Part shown: positions 25,361 through 35,932 of the stretch, piece by piece
Layout: each line of letters starts with the position of its first letter
How positions within the stretch are numbered: position 1 is the stretch's first letter
Assembly (NCBI GenBank): GCA_013376995.1
Contig: JACAAZ010000006.1
Span: 78,736-115,588 of the forward strand
Reading direction: 5' to 3'
From: Bacteroidota bacterium
Lineage (GTDB): Bacteria > Bacteroidota > Bacteroidia > Bacteroidales > UBA4417
Length of the DNA stretch: 36,853 nt
Notes under the pieces: model-generated
What the model was told of the DNA's origin: nothing
The model's input: only the letters and a program-made list of their open reading frames with translations
The model's database searches: none
Position numbers and translations under genes: made by a program

Positions 25361-25993
25361 TCACTTAATCATCCCCAATCCTTCCATTGCCGAAGCATCA
25401 CCGGGACGGTTTAGTAAGGTTTTATTGAATAATACTTTTGCTTCCCTGTATTTGCCCATCTGGTAGTTTGTCCAGGCAAACATATGGAGGACGTCATAAT
25501 CAAAGGGATACATATTGACTAACTTTTCGAAGAGTTTATAGGCGCTTGCATAGTCTTTCCGGGTATAATAAATCGAAGCCAGCCTGTAAGTTGCAAGGTA
25601 ATTTGAAGGGTCTATCTTTAGTATTTCCTGGTATTTACCAATAACAGCTTCCCAATTTCCAAGGGAGGCTGCCGGATATGCATATCCAAGTCTTGCTTCA
25701 ATCGAGTAGGGCATAAGTTTGATAGCTCTGGAATAACAGTTTAAAGCTTCAGAAAAAGATCCTGCCATGTAATGCAACCAGCCAAGCCTGACATTCATTT
25801 CATAGGATGATTCGTCAAAGTTTTTCTTAATGACGTCAACTGCAGCCTGATATTTGCCTGCTTTTTCAAGGCTGTAACTATTCGAGAATGCGTCCTGTAG
25901 TGCCTTATAGTCCTGTGAAAAAACACTTGCTCCAGGCAGAAGCAGCGAAATGCAAATGCAGGTTTTAACAAAAAGATTATTTACAGTTTCCAT
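25361..25993 (-). CDS. Exported TPR-repeat protein
   Basis: A 210-aa protein with a signal peptide (LFVKTCICISLLLPGASVFSQ) and about five TPR units, e.g. SYSLEKAGKYQAAVDVIKK, VRLGWLHYMAGSFSEALNCYSRAIKLMP, YQEILKIDPSNYLATYRLASIYYTRKDYASAYKLFEKLVNMYP and FAWTNYQMGKYREAKVLFNKTLLNRPGD. It is probably periplasmic. It overlaps the preceding TPR/beta-barrel gene by 13 nt, so the two are translationally coupled and likely partners. No catalytic motif is present. Confidence 0.8.
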   Translation of the reverse strand: METVNNLFVKTCICISLLLPGASVFSQDYKALQDAFSNSYSLEKAGKYQAAVDVIKKNFDESSYEMNVRLGWLHYMAGSFSEALNCYSRAIKLMPYSIEARLGYAYPAASLGNWEAVIGKYQEILKIDPSNYLATYRLASIYYTRKDYASAYKLFEKLVNMYPFDYDVLHMFAWTNYQMGKYREAKVLFNKTLLNRPGDASAMEGLGMIK

Positions 25994-27483
25994 TTTAGTC
26001 CTCCGATAAAAATTTGATTTGTGTAAGATTGGCTTGTTACTGATGAAGTGATAACCGGATCTGAACCAGCCGGAGCCGCATTCAGGTATCGTAATTGCTG
26101 AGAATCTTTCAAGTAAATTCTGTACATTAAACTTATCTCTGCATGTTTTCCCAATAAGCAGGTAAGATCGATGCCCGTTCGGGACGTGATATAATCAGGT
26201 TGATTAAAAACAACATAGGCATTTTTTTCATTGTAGAGGTTCATGTTTCCCTGTGTCCAGAACCCCGTAATCCAGGTATTTTCAAAAATCTTTCCACCAA
26301 GCGAAAGTTCATACACCATCCGCTGTTTCTTATCATTGAAGACTGAAACAGTGCTAACACCCCCATAAAGATTAGTATTCCCCATGGGATACCAAGTAAG
26401 GCTCGATCCAACCTCTGACTGTCGCATCCTGTTAAAATCGGAGATGCTCCCTGATAGGTCAAGGGTAACATTTCCAATGTCTTTGCTTGCACTGATGGAG
26501 AAAACATAATTACTGTAAGAAGTATCCCATTGGTAAAGAGAATAGGCTGAACCCTGGTAATTAAACATATGCCAGGAAGTATCGGCGGCCAGGAAATAAG
26601 CGGTATCAGTCAGGTTACTTGTGAACTGAACACTCGTTTTTTTATATTGAACCTGCAAATGATGCAGGGCTGCTGTGATCTTCAGTCCATTATCAGCCAC
26701 GTAGGTTGTATTGAGATAGAAATCTCCCTGGGTAATATTATAGGGAATATTGATTGCTGAAAAGGTTTTAGGGAATGAGTATAGATATGCCTGTCCAAAA
26801 GGAGGATAGGCAATGGAATCAAGATGGGCAACAAGGTAAGAGTATGCCAGGTGTTTTTCCATTTTGATGTTCATTCGCGTAAAGGCTGCAAAAATTGATA
26901 ATGCCGGCATTACCCTTATCTTTCCACCAAATTGTGTATAAAACATGTCTTTCTGGCAATCTTCCTCACCGTATATACTGTCAGTGCCTGCAAGTTCTCC
27001 CGGATTATGGCCATGGCCTGATGAGGGGGAGTAGCCGCTTTCAAGGAAAACCATATCTAAAAAGTTTCCTTTACGTATGTGAAGAGCATCTAATTTTTCA
27101 TTTCCAATTTTTCCTGAAATCCGGGCTGCCTGATCCCGATTGCCTAAATTTATATAGCTAAAATATTTTCCTGACTTAGCTTCATCATCTGAAGAGTTGA
27201 ATCGCAGCGCCTTGTTGTATTGGCTGATTGCTTTGCTGTAATTACCGGTTTCATATGCGGCTGCGCCTAATCGCATCCTTAAATAGTAATAATCATATCC
27301 AGCAGATAATGCATTCATCCCCTGGGTAATCACCTCCGGCCAATTACGTTGCGTATATGCCTCATAGGTTGCACTATCATACCAGCGTGAATCCTTAGCT
27401 TCATTCTGAGCGCTAACCTGGTATCCAGCCATTACCAATAAAATAATGAAGAGATTGAATAATTGTCGGCAATACAATTTCAT
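25981..27483 (-). CDS. TPR-domain outer-membrane beta-barrel protein
   Basis: A 500-aa protein with a signal peptide (LFIILLVMAGYQVSAQ), a short TPR region (YEAYTQRNWPEVITQGMNALSAGYDYYYLRMRLGAAAYETGNYSKAISQYNKALRFN, about 40-105) and a large beta-strand-rich part ending with an aromatic barrel strand (YTNQIFIGGLKWKL). A His-rich segment lies at about residues 156-162 (SGHGHNPG). It is most likely an outer-membrane channel or anchor with a periplasmic TPR domain. It is 11 nt after the urea transporter/M23 gene and overlaps the next TPR gene, so it belongs to the same operon-like set. The substrate is unknown. Confidence 0.72.
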   Translation of the reverse strand: MKLYCRQLFNLFIILLVMAGYQVSAQNEAKDSRWYDSATYEAYTQRNWPEVITQGMNALSAGYDYYYLRMRLGAAAYETGNYSKAISQYNKALRFNSSDDEAKSGKYFSYINLGNRDQAARISGKIGNEKLDALHIRKGNFLDMVFLESGYSPSSGHGHNPGELAGTDSIYGEEDCQKDMFYTQFGGKIRVMPALSIFAAFTRMNIKMEKHLAYSYLVAHLDSIAYPPFGQAYLYSFPKTFSAINIPYNITQGDFYLNTTYVADNGLKITAALHHLQVQYKKTSVQFTSNLTDTAYFLAADTSWHMFNYQGSAYSLYQWDTSYSNYVFSISASKDIGNVTLDLSGSISDFNRMRQSEVGSSLTWYPMGNTNLYGGVSTVSVFNDKKQRMVYELSLGGKIFENTWITGFWTQGNMNLYNEKNAYVVFNQPDYITSRTGIDLTCLLGKHAEISLMYRIYLKDSQQLRYLNAAPAGSDPVITSSVTSQSYTNQIFIGGLKWKL

Positions 27484-27494
27484 GTTAGGTTCTT

Positions 27495-29714
27495 TCAGCT
27501 CGTTAAATCAGGATTATCCTGGCAGGTGCAAGTGATGATTCTGCTTTTTCGGTTAAGTATGATTTGTTCTATCCTGTCATGATCAATATGAAAGCCGATT
27601 CCAGCAATTTGTTTGCTTTTAAACGATGTTCTCTGGGTAATTGTGGCATTTAGGGTAACCTGGGTTTGATTGATCTCATCCTGCATTGATTTATATTCCA
27701 TCCGGTATTCTGTATGCACAAAAAGGTAAAACGGGGCAAGGAAGTCTTGAAGTATCTTTCGGATACCGGTCTGCATAACTGTAACAGGGAACTCATCTAC
27801 TATTTTAAGGCCTGGGTAAAAACCACGGGCAATTTTATAAGCTCCTAGGTAAAAGGCATAAAGCAAAGAACTCTTGTCCCCCTGGAAAGCAGTGAAATAA
27901 AGCAGGTCGTCTTCATTCCTGAACCATGCCTGTGATTCTGTTTTCAGGCAACGGAGATAAGTAAAATTGTAAATATCCACTTCTACGACCCAGTTTTCTG
28001 ATTGGTCAGGTTTCCCATTTTCCTGTACAAGGTAGGATAACTTCTGCCCCGGAATAAAATTGAACGCTTTTTTCAAGCTTTGGATACTCTCAATGTTGGA
28101 TAAACGATCCCCTTTTGCAGGTCTTTCCCAGGTTAGTAATTCAAATTGCTTTTCATTAACAAGCATATATCTGCCTAAAGGATAATCGAGCGTTGCTGAG
28201 CCGATATAGGGAGTAGCCTGTAATTGGAAATGCAGATGGGGTTCAGGAGATCGCCCGGAATTGCCACAGAGAGCCAGTTTATCTCCTTTTCTTACAAATT
28301 GCCCTTTTTCAACGGAGAAACTTCCCTTTTTAATGTGGCTCAGTTTGGAATAGAGTCCATCGAGATGTTTGATTACGATTGAATTTCCCCAGTTCTGTTC
28401 AATGTTGATTTCATGAGGTTGGTTATCATCGACTGAATCGACAATCTCTTCAATCCAGCCATCCGCCGGGGCTATTACAGGTTTATTGTAACAATAGAAA
28501 TCTGAAAGAGAAGTTCCTTTGCCGGAATGATTCTTGTCATTTTCATCCGCAATCTCAAAATCCCAGGCATGCCGCCAGATACCTTTATGAGTATGTTCCC
28601 CTGAATGGCCTTGTGTAACCTTCCATTCTCCCATAAATGGCAAGCCAAAAGGGAAGTATTGGTATCCCCTGAATCGTGTTTTACTATTTTTTTGATTGTA
28701 GAGGTTCTTTTCAGGAGAGAATTCCTGGAAAGTAACCAGTTCAAGTTTCTTATCAGGTTTTTCACGGAACCTTAGCATATAAAGGAACAGGATCACAACA
28801 ATATTAAAAGGAAAGGAATAGGTCGAAAGCTGAAAGTATCCAAGGAACTCACTTGAACTCGAAAGTAAAATGGAAATTATTGGGGTAAGCAATATCACCC
28901 ACAGGAATGATATTCGGGAGGATATGATAAAAAATCCACCGATTGCAATAGCTGTAAGTATAAAATTGAAACCTATATAGCTGTAATTAAGTTCGTTAAA
29001 ATCAGCTCCAATAAAATGATAGAAGAGGTAAGCCGAGTAAAATCCCAGCAATGAAAGCACGAACGCAATCCGGGAGTAGTAGATTAACCCAATTCCAATA
29101 AGGATGCCTGGTAAAAGATGGTATTGGAACAGGATGGCAGAAAGAGATTTGAAGTAAGTTGACAGGGCCAGGGGGAGTTTCAAATCATTAAACCAATCAT
29201 AGGCTTTCACCATTGCAAAACCACCCCAGTAATAAAATTCATTGTAGGTAAAGATTCCTCTTTCGCTTAGATTAAGCTGGGTATAGCGCCTCGCAGCCAA
29301 AGTAACAAGCCAGAACGTAAAAAGGAATGATAGCGTAAGAAATGGCAAACCATATTTGCCGATAACTCCCTCAAAGAACAAGGTTAGAAACAAGGTCAGT
29401 AAGGCTGCAAAAATGATCAGAATAAGGAGCACCAGTGAGAATTGGAAGTAAACTCCTATGCCAAGGCCAACCAGTACTGCGTTGAAACCATATACTCCGG
29501 CCAGGATATTATTCCTGTTAAATCCAATTAGGTAAGCAGTAAAGTTAGCAGTAAGAACTGCAATCAACCCTCCTAGACCTGCTATGGGATCAAAAAAGGA
29601 AACAATGACCAGCATTGCAGCAAATGCATGATTCTTTGAAAAGAAGATCATGGAATAGCTGTTCAGCAGGCTGGTTCCTGCTTTCTTGAATATTAGTGCA
29701 GGTCTGCCGGACAT
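27495..29714 (-). CDS. Urea-transporter-fold protein fused to M23 (LytM-like) peptidase domain
   Basis: A 739-aa fusion. Residues ~20-315 have about ten membrane helices and two degenerate urea-transporter signatures (canonical LPxxTxPF): LPFLTLSF at 123-130 and LSTYSFPF at 296-303. The stretch NNILAGVYGFNAVLVGLGIG (68-87) also matches the family. Residues ~350-520 resemble an M23 metallopeptidase: HAWDFEI (Asp385), a long beta core, LYSKLSHI (His460) and PHLHFQL (His493/His495). The usual HxxxD spacing is not seen at HAWD, so a zinc ligand may come from GEHTHKG just before. A uncharacterised beta-rich tail (~520-739) follows. It is 93 nt after the sigma factor gene and 11 nt before the TPR/barrel gene. 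Activity is unproven. Confidence 0.78.
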   Translation of the reverse strand: MSGRPALIFKKAGTSLLNSYSMIFFSKNHAFAAMLVIVSFFDPIAGLGGLIAVLTANFTAYLIGFNRNNILAGVYGFNAVLVGLGIGVYFQFSLVLLILIIFAALLTLFLTLFFEGVIGKYGLPFLTLSFLFTFWLVTLAARRYTQLNLSERGIFTYNEFYYWGGFAMVKAYDWFNDLKLPLALSTYFKSLSAILFQYHLLPGILIGIGLIYYSRIAFVLSLLGFYSAYLFYHFIGADFNELNYSYIGFNFILTAIAIGGFFIISSRISFLWVILLTPIISILLSSSSEFLGYFQLSTYSFPFNIVVILFLYMLRFREKPDKKLELVTFQEFSPEKNLYNQKNSKTRFRGYQYFPFGLPFMGEWKVTQGHSGEHTHKGIWRHAWDFEIADENDKNHSGKGTSLSDFYCYNKPVIAPADGWIEEIVDSVDDNQPHEINIEQNWGNSIVIKHLDGLYSKLSHIKKGSFSVEKGQFVRKGDKLALCGNSGRSPEPHLHFQLQATPYIGSATLDYPLGRYMLVNEKQFELLTWERPAKGDRLSNIESIQSLKKAFNFIPGQKLSYLVQENGKPDQSENWVVEVDIYNFTYLRCLKTESQAWFRNEDDLLYFTAFQGDKSSLLYAFYLGAYKIARGFYPGLKIVDEFPVTVMQTGIRKILQDFLAPFYLFVHTEYRMEYKSMQDEINQTQVTLNATITQRTSFKSKQIAGIGFHIDHDRIEQIILNRKSRIITCTCQDNPDLTS

Positions 29715-29807
29715 AGGCTGATAGGGGAAATGGCATTATTATACACAACATCGAAATGCTGCTGTGATTTGGTGAATGTTATGAAATGAAGGTGGGGTAA
29801 AGGGGGG

Positions 29808-30377
29808 TTAAAGCAGGGCTTTAATGGCAGGATCATTTTCAACCATTCGTTTAAGGGCTTCCTTGCAAAGATATTTTTTTGTCTTGGCATAGAATTCAGA
29901 TTTGTACCCCATCTCATCTGCGATTTCCTTTAGTGACATTTTGCCCAGGAACAGGTGTAACAGCTTTTTGCAATCCTCGCTCAGGTTATCAAATTGTTTG
30001 ATAAACACGTCGTATTTTTCTTCATCCTCGATAAATTTCTCACTGGCATGCGAGGGAGAACTGAAATGACGAACCAGTTCATCATGGTTGTGTTCAATCA
30101 GCCTTTTTCTTTTCAGCCTTTGTAACCAAAGGTTTTTGCTGATAGAATACAGGTACGTTAAAAATGAAGAACTTAATTCAAATTCATCTTCATTGATTTT
30201 CTTGAGAATGATATAAAGTGCTTCCTGGAAAATGTCTTCTGCATCCTCTTCCAACCCTGCATTTGTTTTGATCAGGTAGCGGATGGAAGGAAAAAATTCC
30301 TTGTATACGTATTTGATAATGTAATCACTATGGAGCCTTAACCCTTCGATGATGGCAAAGTCTGAATAGTGGATCAT
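29808..30377 (-). CDS. Sigma-70 family (ECF-like) RNA polymerase sigma factor
   Basis: A 189-aa cytosolic sigma factor. Region 2 is clear: DAEDIFQEALYIILKKI preceded by YVYKEFFPSIRYLIKTN, with a promoter-melting-type segment SFLTYLYSISKNLWLQRLKRKR. Region 4 is LSEDCKKLLHLFLGKMSLKEIADEMGYKSEFYAKTKKYLCKEALKRM. No region 3 or region 1.1 is present, so it is ECF-type. No anti-sigma (FecR-like) gene is adjacent. It is followed after 93 nt by the urea transporter/M23 fusion, which it may regulate (inference). The linker between regions 2 and 4 (about 100-135) is rich in Glu and His. Confidence 0.88.
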   Translation of the reverse strand: MIHYSDFAIIEGLRLHSDYIIKYVYKEFFPSIRYLIKTNAGLEEDAEDIFQEALYIILKKINEDEFELSSSFLTYLYSISKNLWLQRLKRKRLIEHNHDELVRHFSSPSHASEKFIEDEEKYDVFIKQFDNLSEDCKKLLHLFLGKMSLKEIADEMGYKSEFYAKTKKYLCKEALKRMVENDPAIKALL

Positions 30378-30564
30378 AATAGTACCTTTGAGATTCTGGT
30401 ATCACTAAAACCGAAAATACAAGCAACAAGTAGGACCTGATTTTGTTGACCCAGTATTTACCAGTCTTGTGGTATAACTGCATTTTTTCGGGTGTGAAGA
30501 TACTAAAATATAGATTAGTAATCATGTTTTTTTGCGTTGAAATAATTCAACTTCTTAGATACGA

Positions 30565-31920
30565 TCACTTATTCAGCTCCAAAAAACCTGGAATTTGTTC
30601 CATTAGTCCCGGGTTATCCCTTCCCTCTCTTTTCCTTATCACATGCGGCTCTCCGCTACTTGATATTAGAACTACCGCCGGCCTCATAGTGATAAACTGC
30701 ATCCATTGAGTAATGTTGTAAGCCCCCGTACTGAAGATCACAATCCTTTCACCTTTTTTCAACAGGGGTAGGTTGATAGAATTTCTGATCACATCGATGT
30801 TCATACATAATGGGCCACAGAGTAATGTTTCCTCAAAGTATTGGGAAAATGGCTGTGCAGGTAAAATCTTATGGTCGTACCAGAAAGAGGTAAAGAGCAA
30901 GTTTACTCCTGCGTCAATTACAGTTGACCTGGATCCGGATGCCAGGCGCTTATTGGCCAGCACAGTAGAGATCAAATAACCTGCTTCATCAATCAATGCT
31001 CTTCCTGTCTCCAGGATGAGTAATGGGAGTTCTTGTGTTTCGAAACCGCTGTTGTGCAGGCTGGTTGCTATAGCTTCTGCATAATCATCGAAGGTTGGAT
31101 TTACATCAGGGCCTGGCAAATACGATCCTTTCAGCGTATTTCTTGACACAAACCCTCCGCCCAGGTCAAGATACTTGATGGCAAACTTGTATTTATTCCT
31201 GATATCGATTGCCAATTGAGCAAGCTTTGCAGCAGCTATTCCATATGCACCTGTACTCGAAATAAAAGTTCCTATATGACAATGCAGCCCGGTCAGTTCA
31301 AGCTTTCCTGAATGCATGATCTTATTTATGGCATCCCAAGCCTGGCCATTTTCAAGATTAAATCCAAATCGGTCCCATTGCGGATATATTCCGGTATCCA
31401 GGTTTATTCGGATGGCAACCTTAGGTTTGCTGTTTAATTCTCCTGCCAGGTCGACCAGTTCATACAACTCATCCAGGTGGTCGATATGGATAAGAGAGTC
31501 ATTTTTAATCGCCATTTGCAAATCTTCACGCGATTTGTCGGGGCCGTTAAAAATGATCTTTTTACCATCGACCTGGTTATTCAGTGCCTTTTCGTACTCG
31601 AACCCGGATACGACTTCTGCCCAGGCACCTTCCCGATGAAAGATCCTGCAAATGCTGTCCAGGTAGTTTGTTTTATACGACCAGGCGAATTGAACCCGCG
31701 GATAGCGGGTAGTAAAAGCTCTCTTTGCCTTATTCAACGTTTGAACAATAGTTTCCTCGCTGAAAACGAACAGAGGTGAACCATATTTTCTTACAAGGTC
31801 ACTCACTGCCACTTCATCAATGTGAGTCTTTGGGTTAAGGTCATTCCTCATTCCAAATTTACCAGGCATTCCTGTTTCCAGTTTTCTTATCAGCGGGCGT
31901 TCATATTCTTTTCTAGTCAT
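30565..31920 (-). CDS. Alanine-racemase-fold PLP decarboxylase (LysA-like)
   Basis: A 451-aa fold type III PLP enzyme related to diaminopimelate, arginine and ornithine decarboxylases. The PLP lysine is Lys83 (AWSYKTNYL); other cofactor motifs are HCHIGT (213-218), LDLGGGF (251-257) and LETGR (303-307, where LysA has EPGR). The substrate Cys372 is in CGPLCMNID: LysA has GPLCESGD, so the Glu after Cys that holds the distal amino group is Met373 here. Tyr401 (TGAYN) is kept. The substrate is therefore probably not diaminopimelate. It is the last gene of a unit with a PqqD-like protein and an ATP-grasp ligase, 39 nt downstream of the latter. A modified peptide or amino-acid product is plausible (inference). 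The first ~35 residues are an unusual extension. Confidence 0.85.
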   Translation of the reverse strand: MTRKEYERPLIRKLETGMPGKFGMRNDLNPKTHIDEVAVSDLVRKYGSPLFVFSEETIVQTLNKAKRAFTTRYPRVQFAWSYKTNYLDSICRIFHREGAWAEVVSGFEYEKALNNQVDGKKIIFNGPDKSREDLQMAIKNDSLIHIDHLDELYELVDLAGELNSKPKVAIRINLDTGIYPQWDRFGFNLENGQAWDAINKIMHSGKLELTGLHCHIGTFISSTGAYGIAAAKLAQLAIDIRNKYKFAIKYLDLGGGFVSRNTLKGSYLPGPDVNPTFDDYAEAIATSLHNSGFETQELPLLILETGRALIDEAGYLISTVLANKRLASGSRSTVIDAGVNLLFTSFWYDHKILPAQPFSQYFEETLLCGPLCMNIDVIRNSINLPLLKKGERIVIFSTGAYNITQWMQFITMRPAVVLISSSGEPHVIRKREGRDNPGLMEQIPGFLELNK

Positions 31921-31959
31921 AGAGGGGGGCGACTAAACCGGGTTAAAACGATTAATTAA

Positions 31960-33015
31960 TTATATCTGCTTGAATTCTCCATTAACTGAAAGTTGCTCAA
32001 AGTTGTTTCTTTCAACGATCATGTCATATGAATAACGTATGAATAACTTGCCAACTTCATAGGATTCATAAGGCGAGACAGGCTTTCCCAGGGCAAGGTT
32101 GACCAGGGCTTCTGGGATATTTTGGCCGGTAGCAATGGCTAGATATACCCAAGCCGGGATGCGGGGGTTGATTTCCATCAAATAACATTTACCGTTGTCT
32201 GATTTCATAATTTCCAATTCGAAGGCACCACGCCAATGGGTAGAGGAAATAAAGTTCCTGGTGATCTTAAGCAGATCTGGGTCATTGATGGTTATTCCAG
32301 CCCATGCTTTACCTTTATCAGTTATGAATTGCTTGCGCATTGCAACAGCAGCAATAGTTTGTCCGCTACCATCACCAAGTCCTGTAACATTTAGCTCTGT
32401 CCCTTTTACAAATTTCTGGACAATTACAGGAACTCCCCATTTGGCGCTAATCTTTGCATAATAACCTTTTGCCTGTTCCAGAGTGTGAGCAATGTATGCT
32501 TCATAATACCGGCCTTTGATCATAAGAGGGAAGTCCATAGATTTTACAGTTTTCTCCAGTTCTGATAGGCTATGGATGGTCAGGCTTTCCGGGACATCAA
32601 TTCCGTGCTTTTTCCCAAACGCAGAGAGGTTGGCTTTCTGCCTTTCTTCAAATTGATCTAGAGTGGGAAGAAACATATGAATGCCATGCTGTTCGAGTTC
32701 CGGTGCGAGTTTCATGAAGGAGAACAGCTCAGCATCAAAATTGGGAATGATGACATCCAGATGCTCCTTTTGATGAATATAAAGCAGGCGATCCCGAAGT
32801 GAATCGATGCCTTCTGTAGGGTAAGGGATAAGGTAGGATTTGTTTACCAAACCATCCATATATATTCCAGGTTCCAGTGCTTCATAAGCAAGGCCGGTTA
32901 CGTTTGCTTCGAAAGATAAAGCTTCATGCAATCCGCGAATAACAGGAACTCCGGGCCCCGGGCTATCAACAGCATTTAAACCAGTGACAGCGATGTTAAC
33001 ACGAGGCCTACTCAT
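31960..33015 (-). CDS. ATP-grasp ligase (CarB-like)
   Basis: A 351-aa ATP-grasp enzyme that should join a carboxylate to an amine using ATP. The N-terminal Rossmann-like domain (VNIAVTGLNAVDSPGPGVPVIRGL, DVIIPNFDAELFSFMKL) is followed by the grasp domain: the ATP-binding Lys in PLMIKGRYYEAY, VIVQKFVKGTELNVTGLGDG, and the metal site in GAFELEIMKS and LMEINPRIPAWVYL. It resembles carbamoyl-phosphate-synthase-like proteins of COG0458 but is far smaller than CarB. It overlaps the PqqD-like gene by 8 nt, so the two are coupled, and precedes the LysA-like decarboxylase. Ligation of an amino acid onto a peptide or small carboxylate is the likely chemistry; the substrate is unknown. Confidence 0.88.
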   Translation of the reverse strand: MSRPRVNIAVTGLNAVDSPGPGVPVIRGLHEALSFEANVTGLAYEALEPGIYMDGLVNKSYLIPYPTEGIDSLRDRLLYIHQKEHLDVIIPNFDAELFSFMKLAPELEQHGIHMFLPTLDQFEERQKANLSAFGKKHGIDVPESLTIHSLSELEKTVKSMDFPLMIKGRYYEAYIAHTLEQAKGYYAKISAKWGVPVIVQKFVKGTELNVTGLGDGSGQTIAAVAMRKQFITDKGKAWAGITINDPDLLKITRNFISSTHWRGAFELEIMKSDNGKCYLMEINPRIPAWVYLAIATGQNIPEALVNLALGKPVSPYESYEVGKLFIRYSYDMIVERNNFEQLSVNGEFKQI

Positions 33016-33262
33016 TTGAGGAAACTAGTCGGAAATGTTTCAGTAAATTCAAGAAATCCATCAGGTCTCTTTCCGCTTGTTCAAGATCTACCTGGAATTC
33101 AACTACAAGCTGATCCAGGATCTCCTGCCGGGCTTTTCCAAGCCGAAGTTGGTTAAGAATCCCAACTCCTATCGGGTTAACAGTAAATGATTCCCCTGTA
33201 ACAGGATTAAAGATAAAACCAGAATCGCTAAGAGCAATGTCTTTTATTAATGAGGGTTCCAT
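33008..33262 (-). CDS. PqqD family (RiPP recognition element) protein
   Basis: An 84-aa PqqD-like protein. IKDIALSDSGFIFNPVTGESFTVNPIGVGILNQLRLGKARQEILDQLVVEFQVDLEQAERDLMDFLNLLKHFRLV follows the PqqD fold: a beta-hairpin, then three helices. In the family this domain binds the leader of a ribosomal precursor peptide and presents it to modifying enzymes. No precursor peptide gene was found nearby. It is the first gene of the unit with the ATP-grasp and decarboxylase genes, whose stop/start codons overlap. PqqD-like domains also occur outside known RiPP clusters, so a peptide substrate is not certain. Confidence 0.85.
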   Translation of the reverse strand: MEPSLIKDIALSDSGFIFNPVTGESFTVNPIGVGILNQLRLGKARQEILDQLVVEFQVDLEQAERDLMDFLNLLKHFRLVSSNE

Positions 33263-33604
33263 AAGATTTGTAAGTCGAAGACCAGCTAAGGTGACTAATT
33301 GAGGGGTTGTCGTTTTGAGACCTTTTGACTACAATAATACACTAAAGTTTAAATACTCCTGAACTTCTTTCATTCCATTCAAGCCTCTTTAACATTCTGA
33401 ATGTTTTTATTTCCCTGCTATATAACATGGTTCATCCCAAAGTGTTGCCTGATTCAGCTCATTTGTCGTAATATTGTAACGATGATACAACGTTTTCCGG
33501 TGTTTTCATTCCTATTACTTTGGCCGGTAAAACCGGATTTATAATCTGCAATAAAATTGTGCAGGAAAAGTTATAACACATTAACATCACGTAAGCATTA
33601 CCGA
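33263..33604. other. Divergent intergenic region between pqqD-like gene and porZ
   Basis: A 342-nt AT-rich spacer carrying the start regions of both divergent genes. No protein gene is supported. On the plus strand TAATATTG (33469-33476) is a one-mismatch -7 candidate for porZ. On the minus strand no CAAAnnTA (the reverse complement of the -7 box) was found. A 28-codon minus-strand open frame at 33342-33428 is noted but not supported. Confidence 0.4.
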
Positions 33605-35932
33605 ATGAAATTCACATCTCTTCTGATCTTTTCATGCTTTGTGTTTCAAGGCATTTTCAATACTGCATCTGCTCAGGATCTGCGCATAGGACAATGGAGG
33701 GACCACCTCCCTTTTAATCGTTGTACATTTATTTCTATGGCTGGAGATCGTGTCTATGCTTCAACTCCGAGCAGCTTAGTTTATTTTGATAAAAAAGACA
33801 ATAGCCTGAACCGTAAAAACAAGATCAACGGGCTTTCGGATGTAGGCCTCAGTGCTATTGCCTATAGTGATAAATACAGTACCCTCGTTATTGCCTATTC
33901 TAATACCAATCTCGATTTGCTGAAAAACGATAATGTCACCAATATCCCTGATATCAAGAGAAAGCAGATCCTTGGGAATAAAACAATAAACCGTATTCTG
34001 ATCATTGATAAATACGCATACCTATCCTGTGGTTTTGGAATCGTTGTCCTTGACCTGGAGCGGGAGGAAATTCACGATACTTACTTTATCGGCCCCCTGG
34101 GAACTCAAATCAATGTGTTCGACCTCACCTTCAATGCCGCAGACAACAAGTTCTATGCTGCCACTGAAAAGGGAATATATTCTGCAGAAATATCATCCAA
34201 TCTAGCTTTCTATGAAAACTGGAAGCAAGAAACATCCCTGCCTGCTCCTAACACTAAATATAACCTCATCGCCTCATTCAACGGGAAAGTTTATGCAAAT
34301 GCATCCAAAGCTTCTTTCAATTCTGATACGTTGTATGTGTATGATGGAACTGGCTGGAACTATTTTGATAATACAAACCATTCTACCCGCGCAAGCCTGA
34401 GCGTATCAAATGACAGGTTGCTGATCTGTAATTTTCTTACCATTGATGCATACAAACCTGATGGTACCAAGGAAAGGAATTATTGGACCTACAATCCCGG
34501 GAATATCCGTCCAAATGATGTTGAATTTGACAGCGACAACACGCTATGGATTGCAGATAATGACCATGGGATTTACAGCATTAATAAATCGGACGTAAGC
34601 CAGCAATACCTGATCAACGGGCCTGCTACCTCACAGGTCTCAGCCATGGATATTGTAGGAACTTCTGTTTGGGCTGTTCCTGGTGGGCGCAATGCATCTT
34701 TCGGGAATTTGTACAACCAGGCCCAGTTTTATAACTACCAGGATGAAAGCTGGACATCCTATAACAATGTTACTATACCAGCACTTACCGATGCACGTGA
34801 TCTCCTTTGCGTAGCTACTGATCCTCTCAAATCTGATCATGCTTTTCTTGGCAGTTGGGGATATGGATTATTCGAAATGGATGGTGGCAGCCTGGTTAAA
34901 ACCTATACTCCTGCTAATAGTTCCCTGCAAGCATCTATTTATGATGATGCATTATGTTTTGTCGGTGGAATGGCCTTTGACACTGACCACAACCTGTGGA
35001 TGACAAATTCTACAGCCAATAATATCCTCACAGTAAGAAAAAATAACGGGGATTGGAAATCCTATAACCTTGGCACCAATGCAACAGGAGTTGATGTCGG
35101 GAATATCGTAGTTGATCATTCCAACCAAAAATGGATGCAGATGCGTGATCTCTCGTTGTTTGTTTACAATGATAACAATACCCTAGACAATACAGCCGAT
35201 GACCAGGTTCATAAACTTACAAATGCAGTTGGAAATGGAAACCTTCCGGGAAATGGAATAGCAAGTTTCGCAATTGACAAGGAAGGACAACTCTGGCTTG
35301 GAAGCGACCAGGGTGTTGCTGTAATCTATTCACCTGAAAACGTGTTTACAGGAGGGAATTTCGATGCAGAAAAAGTAATGATTGAAGAAGCGGGATACCT
35401 GCATCCTCTGCTGGAAACAGAAGCTGTAACTGCCATTGCCGTTAACGGGAATAATGAAAAGTGGATGGGAACTGATAAATCAGGTGTTTTCCTGATGTCA
35501 GCTGATGGATCAAAGGAGATCTATCATTTTACTGAAGAAAACAGTCCATTGATTTCAAATTCCATCACCAGTATTAAGATTGCAAGTGACGGTGAGGTGT
35601 TTTTTGCAACATCAAACGGGATCGTGTCTTATAAGGATTCTTCGCAACCACCCTCAGCTGGACTAGATTCTATTTATGTATTTCCCAACCCTGTGAGACC
35701 TGACTACACAGGCCCTATTGCCATAACTAACCTTGTTGCAGACTGTTATGTTAAGGTTACCGACATTAGCGGTAACCTGGTTTGGGAAACCCAGGCATCA
35801 GGCGGACGTATTGTATGGGATGGGAATGACCTCGACGGACATAGGGTGAAGACCGGCGTTTACCTGGTATTTATTACCAATTCTGATGGCTCTTCTAAGG
35901 CTGTTACCAAGGTGCTGTTCATCGATAAGTAG
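33605..35932 (+). CDS. porZ: PorZ-like T9SS attachment-complex protein
   Basis: A 775-aa surface protein, the size of Porphyromonas gingivalis PorZ (776 aa), which belongs to the attachment complex that helps anchor T9SS cargo to A-LPS. After the signal peptide (MKFTSLLIFSCFVFQGIFNTASAQ) the mature start DLRIGQWRDHLPFNRCTFIS is typical. Two seven-bladed propeller-like domains follow with repeated blades (NKFYAATEKGIYSAE, NTLWIADNDHGIYSIN, GQLWLGSDQGVAVIY, EKWMGTDKSGVFLMS). The last ~85 residues (VFPNPVRPDYTGPIAITNL...HRVKTGVYLVFITN) are a T9SS sorting domain. The ATG at 33605 starts the signal peptide. recO follows 45 nt later, an arrangement seen in other Bacteroidota. It should help the nuclease and BNR protein reach the surface. 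Confidence 0.9.
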   Translation: MKFTSLLIFSCFVFQGIFNTASAQDLRIGQWRDHLPFNRCTFISMAGDRVYASTPSSLVYFDKKDNSLNRKNKINGLSDVGLSAIAYSDKYSTLVIAYSNTNLDLLKNDNVTNIPDIKRKQILGNKTINRILIIDKYAYLSCGFGIVVLDLEREEIHDTYFIGPLGTQINVFDLTFNAADNKFYAATEKGIYSAEISSNLAFYENWKQETSLPAPNTKYNLIASFNGKVYANASKASFNSDTLYVYDGTGWNYFDNTNHSTRASLSVSNDRLLICNFLTIDAYKPDGTKERNYWTYNPGNIRPNDVEFDSDNTLWIADNDHGIYSINKSDVSQQYLINGPATSQVSAMDIVGTSVWAVPGGRNASFGNLYNQAQFYNYQDESWTSYNNVTIPALTDARDLLCVATDPLKSDHAFLGSWGYGLFEMDGGSLVKTYTPANSSLQASIYDDALCFVGGMAFDTDHNLWMTNSTANNILTVRKNNGDWKSYNLGTNATGVDVGNIVVDHSNQKWMQMRDLSLFVYNDNNTLDNTADDQVHKLTNAVGNGNLPGNGIASFAIDKEGQLWLGSDQGVAVIYSPENVFTGGNFDAEKVMIEEAGYLHPLLETEAVTAIAVNGNNEKWMGTDKSGVFLMSADGSKEIYHFTEENSPLISNSITSIKIASDGEVFFATSNGIVSYKDSSQPPSAGLDSIYVFPNPVRPDYTGPIAITNLVADCYVKVTDISGNLVWETQASGGRIVWDGNDLDGHRVKTGVYLVFITNSDGSSKAVTKVLFIDK

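Follow-up and report, generated by a model that had tools for sequence, protein, structure and literature searches.

A small PqqD-like protein probably docks on a leader-like N-terminal tail of a decarboxylase that is encoded in the same conserved operon of Bacteroidota. The operon was analysed in a stretch of 36,853 nucleotides (nt) from a Bacteroidota bacterium (UBA4417; assembly GCA_013376995.1, contig JACAAZ010000006.1, positions 78,736-115,588 of the forward strand), which is called the window in the following and to which all coordinates refer. The six genes of the operon, A to F, span 25361-33262 on the minus strand. In the overall reading that we favour with some reserve, A is a recognition element of the type known from ribosomally synthesized and post-translationally modified peptides (RiPPs) and docks C by its tail, the enzymes B and C make a decarboxylated conjugate, and D, E and F move the product. 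Docking is the stronger part of this reading; for the ligase-decarboxylase-export pathway the case is about evenly balanced. What would be new here is that the docking of a RiPP recognition element (RRE) on a leader, known from RiPPs, is applied to an enzyme.

The PqqD-like protein A and the tail of the decarboxylase C

Gene A (33008-33262, minus strand) encodes a protein of 84 amino acids (aa) with the PqqD domain PF05402 (41.2 bits, cut-off 23.4). Gene B (31960-33015, minus strand) encodes a 351-aa ATP-grasp ligase (PF15632 ATPgrasp_Ter, 43.3 bits; PF02655, 25.7 bits), and gene C (30565-31920, minus strand) a 451-aa fold-type III decarboxylase that depends on pyridoxal phosphate (PF02784, 108.3 bits; PF00278, 46.5 bits). 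A and B overlap by 8 nt, and B and C are separated by 39 nt. This trio and its layout had been given in a preliminary description of the window and were reproduced with open reading frames (ORFs) and Pfam. For comparison, 192 loci were gathered via relatives of B, and near relatives are possibly among them (the window, L033-L067, L069-L088, L120-L155 and L157-L256). Excluded were L001 and L002, which are the window itself, L032, whose contig is apparently that of L155, L068, which matched weakly, and a set of short loci (L003-L031, L089-L119 and L156) that represent fragments of the same places or belong to other queries.

PqqD was the sole Pfam match of A, and TbiB1 was its closest solved structure (E 3.8e-7). 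TbiB1 (5v1u/5v1v) is a lasso RRE in the structure list of the accessible part of PMC13381572. The same part describes that discrete lasso RREs recognise [Y/W]xxPx[L/V/I/F/A], and that in LppB D70 hydrogen-bonds the leader tyrosine, F74 lines or divides the two pockets, and N33 fixes the proline kink. Using the D-x-x-x-F spacing, D70, F74 and N33 were mapped by hand to D66, F70 and N29 of A, and this mapping was fixed before residue 66 was tested against the tail. N29 was conserved in 91 of 91 family members, F70 in 89 and D66 in 76. A has the sequence features of a discrete lasso-type RRE, namely a PqqD-family domain of about 80-100 aa and the groove residues for YxxP. It shares with TbiB1, TfuB1, PbaB1 and LppB the family, the groove residues, the YxxPx[L/I/V] motif and the leader register; in contrast to these systems, the motif is found here on a 450-aa decarboxylase, and no precursor peptide was found. 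Together, this suggests that A is an RRE whose ligand is the tail of C, with Asp66 (codon 33065-33067) as the predicted contact of the tail tyrosine. LysW-type carriers are small proteins with a conserved C-terminal glutamate; a LysW-like carrier was dropped as an identity of A, as the C-termini vary among 64 aligned A proteins.

The tail comprises residues Y6-G23 of C (31852-31905, minus strand) and precedes the decarboxylase domain, as the part of C to which solved relatives align begins at residue 33 at the earliest (33 for BtrK, 44 for 2yxx). It has the motif YxxPx[ILV], and K21 and G23 are its positions 16 and 18. A search with the pattern [YF]..P.[ILV] followed by K.[GA] retrieved the tail in 184 of 186 C proteins; the two misses (L063, L220) start inside the protein. 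The composition of the 184 ungapped tails was counted with positions 1, 4 and 6 selected by the pattern and positions 16 and 18 outside it. Position 1 was tyrosine in 145 and phenylalanine in 39 tails (assigned by eye in L150, F, and L187, Y). Position 2 was E in 175, position 3 R/K in 176, position 4 P in all 184, position 6 I/L/V in all 184, position 8 K/R in 174, position 12 G in 152, position 16 K in 184 and position 18 G in 182 tails. According to the accessible part of PMC10368454, lasso leaders carry YxxPxL at -17 to -12 and threonine at -2, and glycine is core residue 1. These landmarks fall on tail positions 1-6, 16 and 18 in the same register, into which the humidimycin leader given in the accessible part of PMC7168211 fits as well.

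The K16-x-G18 element lies outside the RRE-binding motif and probably serves as a handle for another protein, either B or the M23 peptidase domain of D, the fourth gene of the operon. It might also be proposed, though we regard it as unlikely, that the tail is itself a RiPP-like substrate: A would present it, B would modify Lys16 or a residue near it (alternatively, a cut before Gly18 would be made by the M23 domain of D), and C would be matured or armed by its own operon. The invariant K16 and the G18 of 182 of the 184 tails would suit this proposal, since their places in the register match T(-2) and G(+1) of the lasso cleavage site T(-2)-x(-1)-G(+1). A cytosolic M23 domain would suit it too, and the domain may indeed be cytosolic: hydropathy revealed no further membrane-like stretch past about residue 311 of D, and the loop of 39 residues that follows the last such stretch averages 6.2 Lys/Arg, which points to the cytosol by the positive-inside rule. 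However, this topology is derived from hydropathy, no modification or cleavage of the tail has been seen, and the usual substrate of M23 peptidases is peptidoglycan, outside the cytoplasm. The chances are similarly low for an extended version, in which a stand-alone RRE reads the full lasso-like leader on a decarboxylase, K16-x-G18 included, the operon ligates something to this leader or cuts it, the enzyme is the "precursor", and an undescribed amine is made and moved.

The docking of C by A was supported by covariation. In the first 85 loci, tails with tyrosine at position 1 were accompanied by D (70) or N (2) at residue 66 of A (A66), and tails with phenylalanine by Y (11), H (1) or S (1). 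A66 held all 0.617 bits of the tail entropy, and the next of the 84 positions held 0.333. For the tree tests 182 loci were used (A is missing from one locus, at a contig end, and another locus, with a phenylalanine tail and Tyr66, was dropped for its short B). In these, A66 was D 128, N 15 and H 1 with tyrosine tails, and Y 24, S 11, A 2 and H 1 with phenylalanine tails, i.e., D or N accompanied 143 of 144 tyrosine tails and none of the 38 phenylalanine tails. On the tree of B the tail changes nine times, and seven of these nine branches change A66 too. Overall, 17 of the 362 branches carry a change of A66 (p 4.4e-9 by the hypergeometric test, compared with 0.005 for the next A position). The pair ranked first of 27,761 pairs of A and C columns with at least 5 changes per column (second pair, p 3.4e-7). 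On a tree of B and tail-less C all seven tail changes coincided with changes of A66 (p 7.5e-11; next A position 0.02). The pair of tail position 3 (Arg8, 31897-31899) and A20 (Pro20, 33203-33205) was at rank 4 of the 27,761; A20 is located towards the N-terminus of A, and none of the LppB contacts given in the accessible part of PMC13381572 corresponds to it.

Several observations weigh against this view of A and C. The trees contain weakly supported branches, and a strict test with well-supported branches yielded one pair for the 85 loci, three pairs for the 182 loci (two in the same way, none opposite, one without change) and four pairs on the tree of B and tail-less C (three, none and one, respectively); well-supported pairs were too few for the strict tests to reach significance. 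In an AlphaFold2 model of an A-B-C read-through chain the tail was disordered (predicted local distance difference test, pLDDT, 24-47) and A was poor (45-78), covered by only 4 of 16 alignment rows, and therefore the model gives no view of the docking; residues just past the tail reached a pLDDT of 89. The tail could not be assigned to a known lasso leader family, as ten tails were without an NCBIfam match, with filters that drop weak matches, and a tail query yielded no lasso match in the PDB. In two loci (L173, L204) the roughly 8 kb that follow B contain no C on its strand. Moreover, exchange of Y(-17) for alanine in one lasso system left precursor phosphorylation unaffected, as stated in the accessible part of PMC10368454, so that the tyrosine can be dispensable for some RRE-dependent steps. 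Last, the loose motif occurred within the first 40 aa of 53 of 960 unrelated ORFs and of 21 of 167 D proteins. The loose motif alone being common, the weight of the case for a leader is on the register and the covariation.

An alternative is that the joint conservation of tail and A has a different cause, for example that A acts as a winged helix-turn-helix regulator or a fold-stabilising subunit, and that the covariation is a lineage effect. The clustering of the tail states on the tree and the small number of well-supported pairs would be in line with it. Such an effect is nevertheless improbable, because the A66-tail pair came first among all column pairs, because every tail change on the second tree coincided with a change of A66, and because A66 was chosen from the LppB description ahead of the test.

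The preliminary description had proposed that the trio may build or tailor a peptide, and had named a conserved short ORF within 2 kb as something to look for. A separate ribosomal peptide was not supported. Among 13,158 small ORFs (20-110 aa, at most 2 kb from operon genes) the leader register occurred 36 times versus 26 times after one shuffle each, i.e., not beyond chance, and the sole leader-like one among 20 of the 36 matches listed (L063) was the broken-off tail of C. With the tail as query, C was the only protein retrieved from the window's genome. The B2-type transglutaminase-like leader peptidase PF13471 had no match in this genome at E 0.001, and no asparagine-synthetase-like lasso cyclase was detected by Pfam among the operon genes, a genome-wide search for which was not made. 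The operon fails as a RiPP or lasso gene cluster, having neither a detected precursor nor a B2 peptidase, and the earlier remark that it is no standard RiPP cluster was right. An undescribed RiPP cluster with a precursor elsewhere in the genome, which is close to the original idea and would account for an RRE-type protein, is very improbable in view of the small-ORF counts, the result of the tail query and the covariation of A with the tail of C. Whether the PqqD-like protein has another partner in relatives, as also envisaged, was followed in loci found with B, and there the likely partner is C itself. No description of the operon was found in the open literature, a scope that mostly leaves out subscription journals and entirely bioRxiv, nor was the operon seen in the accessible part of PMC8939145.

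The enzymes B and C

In B, residues K167, E268, E281, N283 and R285 were kept in at least 97% of 90 proteins, and we take these to be the catalytic positions of ATP-grasp enzymes. A phmmer search against the PDB revealed no relative of B at E 0.001.

The nearest decarboxylase to C, both in sequence and in fold, is FigC/FslC of rhizoferrin synthesis. FslC (NF041039) was the best NCBIfam match, the best PDB match was 7kh2 (FigC/FslC) with 222 bits, compared with 94 bits for BtrK, and FigC/FslC was also the top fold match of the modelled A-B-C chain. C372-M373 aligns with C354-M355 of FigC, where the diaminopimelate decarboxylase (DAPDC) 1twi has CES, and counting by hand along the alignment placed Y401 at FigC Y383 and R307 at R290. 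The same count placed I375 and Q405 at FigC H357 and R387, which are citrate contacts according to the accessible part of PMC7857480. The FigC-like Cys-Met together with I375 and Q405 points to a substrate that is N-substituted and not citryl. FslC itself was rejected as the identity of C (248 bits versus a cut-off of 500, and I375 and Q405 at the citrate-binding His357 and Arg387). Likewise, C was rejected as LysA, the diaminopimelate decarboxylase, with 221.5 bits for TIGR01048 versus a cut-off of 297.9 and with CMNID instead of CESxD.

The window's genome contains one PqqD-family protein, three PF02784 proteins and one UT-domain protein (E 0.001). A second PF02784 protein (388 aa, EPGR motif) adjoins a 441-aa ORF that presumably resembles an aspartokinase, and C is therefore probably not the enzyme of the lysine pathway. 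A tail of the C type is carried by neither of the other two PF02784 proteins.

FigC, SbnH, AcsE, MccE and BtrK form one clade with DAPDC and D-ornithine decarboxylase (D-ODC), for which conjugated substrates are described in the accessible part of PMC7857480; BtrK, for example, acts on glutamyl-BtrI (same source). Judged from its FigC/FslC-like sequence and active site and from the conjugated substrates of the clade, C probably acts as a decarboxylase on an amino acid that already carries a partner at its far end, and B is likely the joiner that makes this conjugated substrate. The earlier idea that an amino acid is joined to something and decarboxylated fits the enzyme types of B and C.

Compared with rhizoferrin synthesis, C has Cys-Met, Tyr and Arg in common with FigC/FslC, but it is devoid of the citrate-binding His and Arg, and its partner is an ATP-grasp enzyme and not an NRPS-independent siderophore (NIS) synthetase. 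The second comparison is with butirosin, in which BtrI, BtrJ and BtrK, like the trio, are a small protein, an ATP-grasp ligase (BtrJ) and a fold-type III decarboxylase in series. In contrast to butirosin, A matches PqqD only and is no acyl carrier protein, the search for carriers having been confined to the operon and not extended to the rest of the genome, and C is nearer to FslC than to BtrK. The closest logic to the operon is that of butirosin BtrI/J/K or rhizoferrin FigA/FigC, without a carrier or NIS synthetase in the operon.

Conservation of the operon and its transport half

Relatives of B were found in 38 of 60 near genomes (own genome included, E 0.001), 31 of which were strong (E 3e-88 or lower). 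A contig scan with B yielded 37 loci, 36 of them strong, from several Bacteroidota groups, one "Chlorobiota" and one Ignavibacteriaceae genome. B was present in 27 of 296 genomes drawn from the phylum (E 1e-40) and in 154 of 393 genomes drawn from the order (E 1e-60), corresponding to 102 of 206 genera. The draw from the order supplied 132 new B-positive genomes, 100 of which were taken into the loci, mostly by E-value order.

The view of the trio as a unit was borne out, because in 191 of the 192 loci A precedes B in the same orientation (in the exception, L077, the contig ends inside B), and C follows B in most of them, across Bacteroidota and in the Ignavibacteriaceae genome. D is on the operon strand in 166 of the 192 loci. 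Neighbour clustering and profile searches recovered the order A-B-C-D-E-F, and the unit, which had been described as three genes, turned out to have six, continuing through D, E and F; the tail of C had been overlooked as well. In 136 loci the sequence extends more than 6.5 kb past B; 107 of these had ABCDEF, 14 ABCDF, 2 ABCDFE, 3 ABCDE, 2 ABCD, 6 ABC and 2 AB, and F is the last conserved gene. Larkinella humicola (L054) is among the carriers of the operon. An apparent natural fusion of B and C in L187 was an artefact, in which a run of N bridges two reading frames. Six proteins were without a PADLOC match, and an identity as a defence system was dropped.

D (27495-29714, minus strand) encodes 739 aa with a UT domain (PF03253, 183.6 bits, above its cut-off) and an M23 peptidase domain (PF01551, 57.7 bits). 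It shares the UT membrane domain of about 300 aa with the UT urea transporters. Unlike them, it is fused to an M23 domain, in which His and Asp positions are conserved, and is located in this operon. H376, D385, H460, H493 and H495 of the M23 domain were found in at least 97% of 73 proteins and are presumably the functional residues of the peptidase. A UT search in 148 phylum genomes had 16 matches, 14 of them in B-positive genomes with D in the operon locus (in one, G064, locus L120, the frame of D is split); in the other two, G168 and G191, which do not belong to the B-positive set, the UT frame has 280-294 aa.

E (25981-27483, minus strand) encodes 500 aa with an N-terminal TPR-like domain (TPR_1 below cut-off) and an outer-membrane beta-barrel. 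Its AlphaFold2 model (pLDDT 81.7; predicted template modelling score, pTM, 0.74) has an N-terminal helix, helices at 32-133 and long strands at 142-499, and the best Foldseek matches were FadL, autotransporter, BcsC and AlgE barrels, with a query template modelling score of at most 0.42 among the matches listed. F (25361-25993, minus strand) encodes a 210-aa TPR protein (TPR_2, 71.5 bits). E is absent after D in loci that group with the Ignavibacteriaceae locus L064 on the tree of the first 85 loci, and in most of these a gene of about 270-310 aa follows F (L061, L064, L126, L131-L136, L138-L140); in L137 and L145 a shorter gene follows F. The gene of about 270-310 aa may encode an unfused barrel; in L061 and L126 it matched the E profile weakly, with scores of 22 and 24. 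With regard to D, E and F, export of the product would be the simplest reading of the domains, import being as possible as export.

Several neighbouring genes were observed in addition. A sigma factor of the extracytoplasmic function (ECF) type (PF04542; 29808-30377, minus strand) sits between C and D and reads in operon direction. A relative at the same site was seen solely in L032/L155, apparently one contig, and thus it looks like a recent arrival and no conserved part of the operon. The gene for PorZ of type IX secretion (33557-35932; NF052228, 614 bits) starts divergently beside the operon and had no relative among the neighbours in the other 56 compared loci. In 18 of 57 loci (L046-L053, L055-L060, L062, L063, L065, L066), ten of which are from Chitinophagaceae or Sphingobacteria groups, A is immediately preceded by a gene of about 167 aa, which we take to be GNAT-like; its product may modify the pathway product. 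A secreted-looking protein of 266-267 aa is encoded between A and B in 6 of 12 same-genus loci (L069, L070, L072, L074, L078, L080), and in some of the same-genus loci a 754-aa protein, presumably resembling CotH, is encoded after C. The window has neither of the two.

A possible mechanism and its meaning

In the reading favoured here, the Tyr/Phe-x-x-Pro-x-Ile strand of the tail would lie in the groove of A, with the tyrosine hydroxyl on Asp66, as the covariation supports, and A would dock C presumably beside the ligase B. B might activate a carboxylate and join it to an amino acid, or join an amino acid to a partner. As family and active-site residues suggest, C would then remove the alpha-carboxylate of the conjugate, comparable to FigC/FslC on N-citrylornithine and BtrK on glutamyl-BtrI. 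Gene order and domains are consistent with a product that would leave via the UT channel of D and then via the pair of F and E at the outer membrane.

About half of the proteins retrieved by a discrete lasso RRE model adjoin lasso machinery, while many others are unexplained, as reported in the accessible part of PMC7470986. The operon is a concrete candidate answer for such unexplained RREs, namely an RRE that reads a leader carried by an enzyme. The pairing of Y or F in the tail with D or Y in A yields a sharp prediction, and the question of binding comes down to one peptide and one 84-aa protein. If the reading is true, a system with a ligase present in 102 of the 206 sampled genera of one order makes an undescribed compound, PqqD-type domains can serve as enzyme-docking adaptors, and an orphan PqqD gene is no sure sign of a ribosomal peptide.

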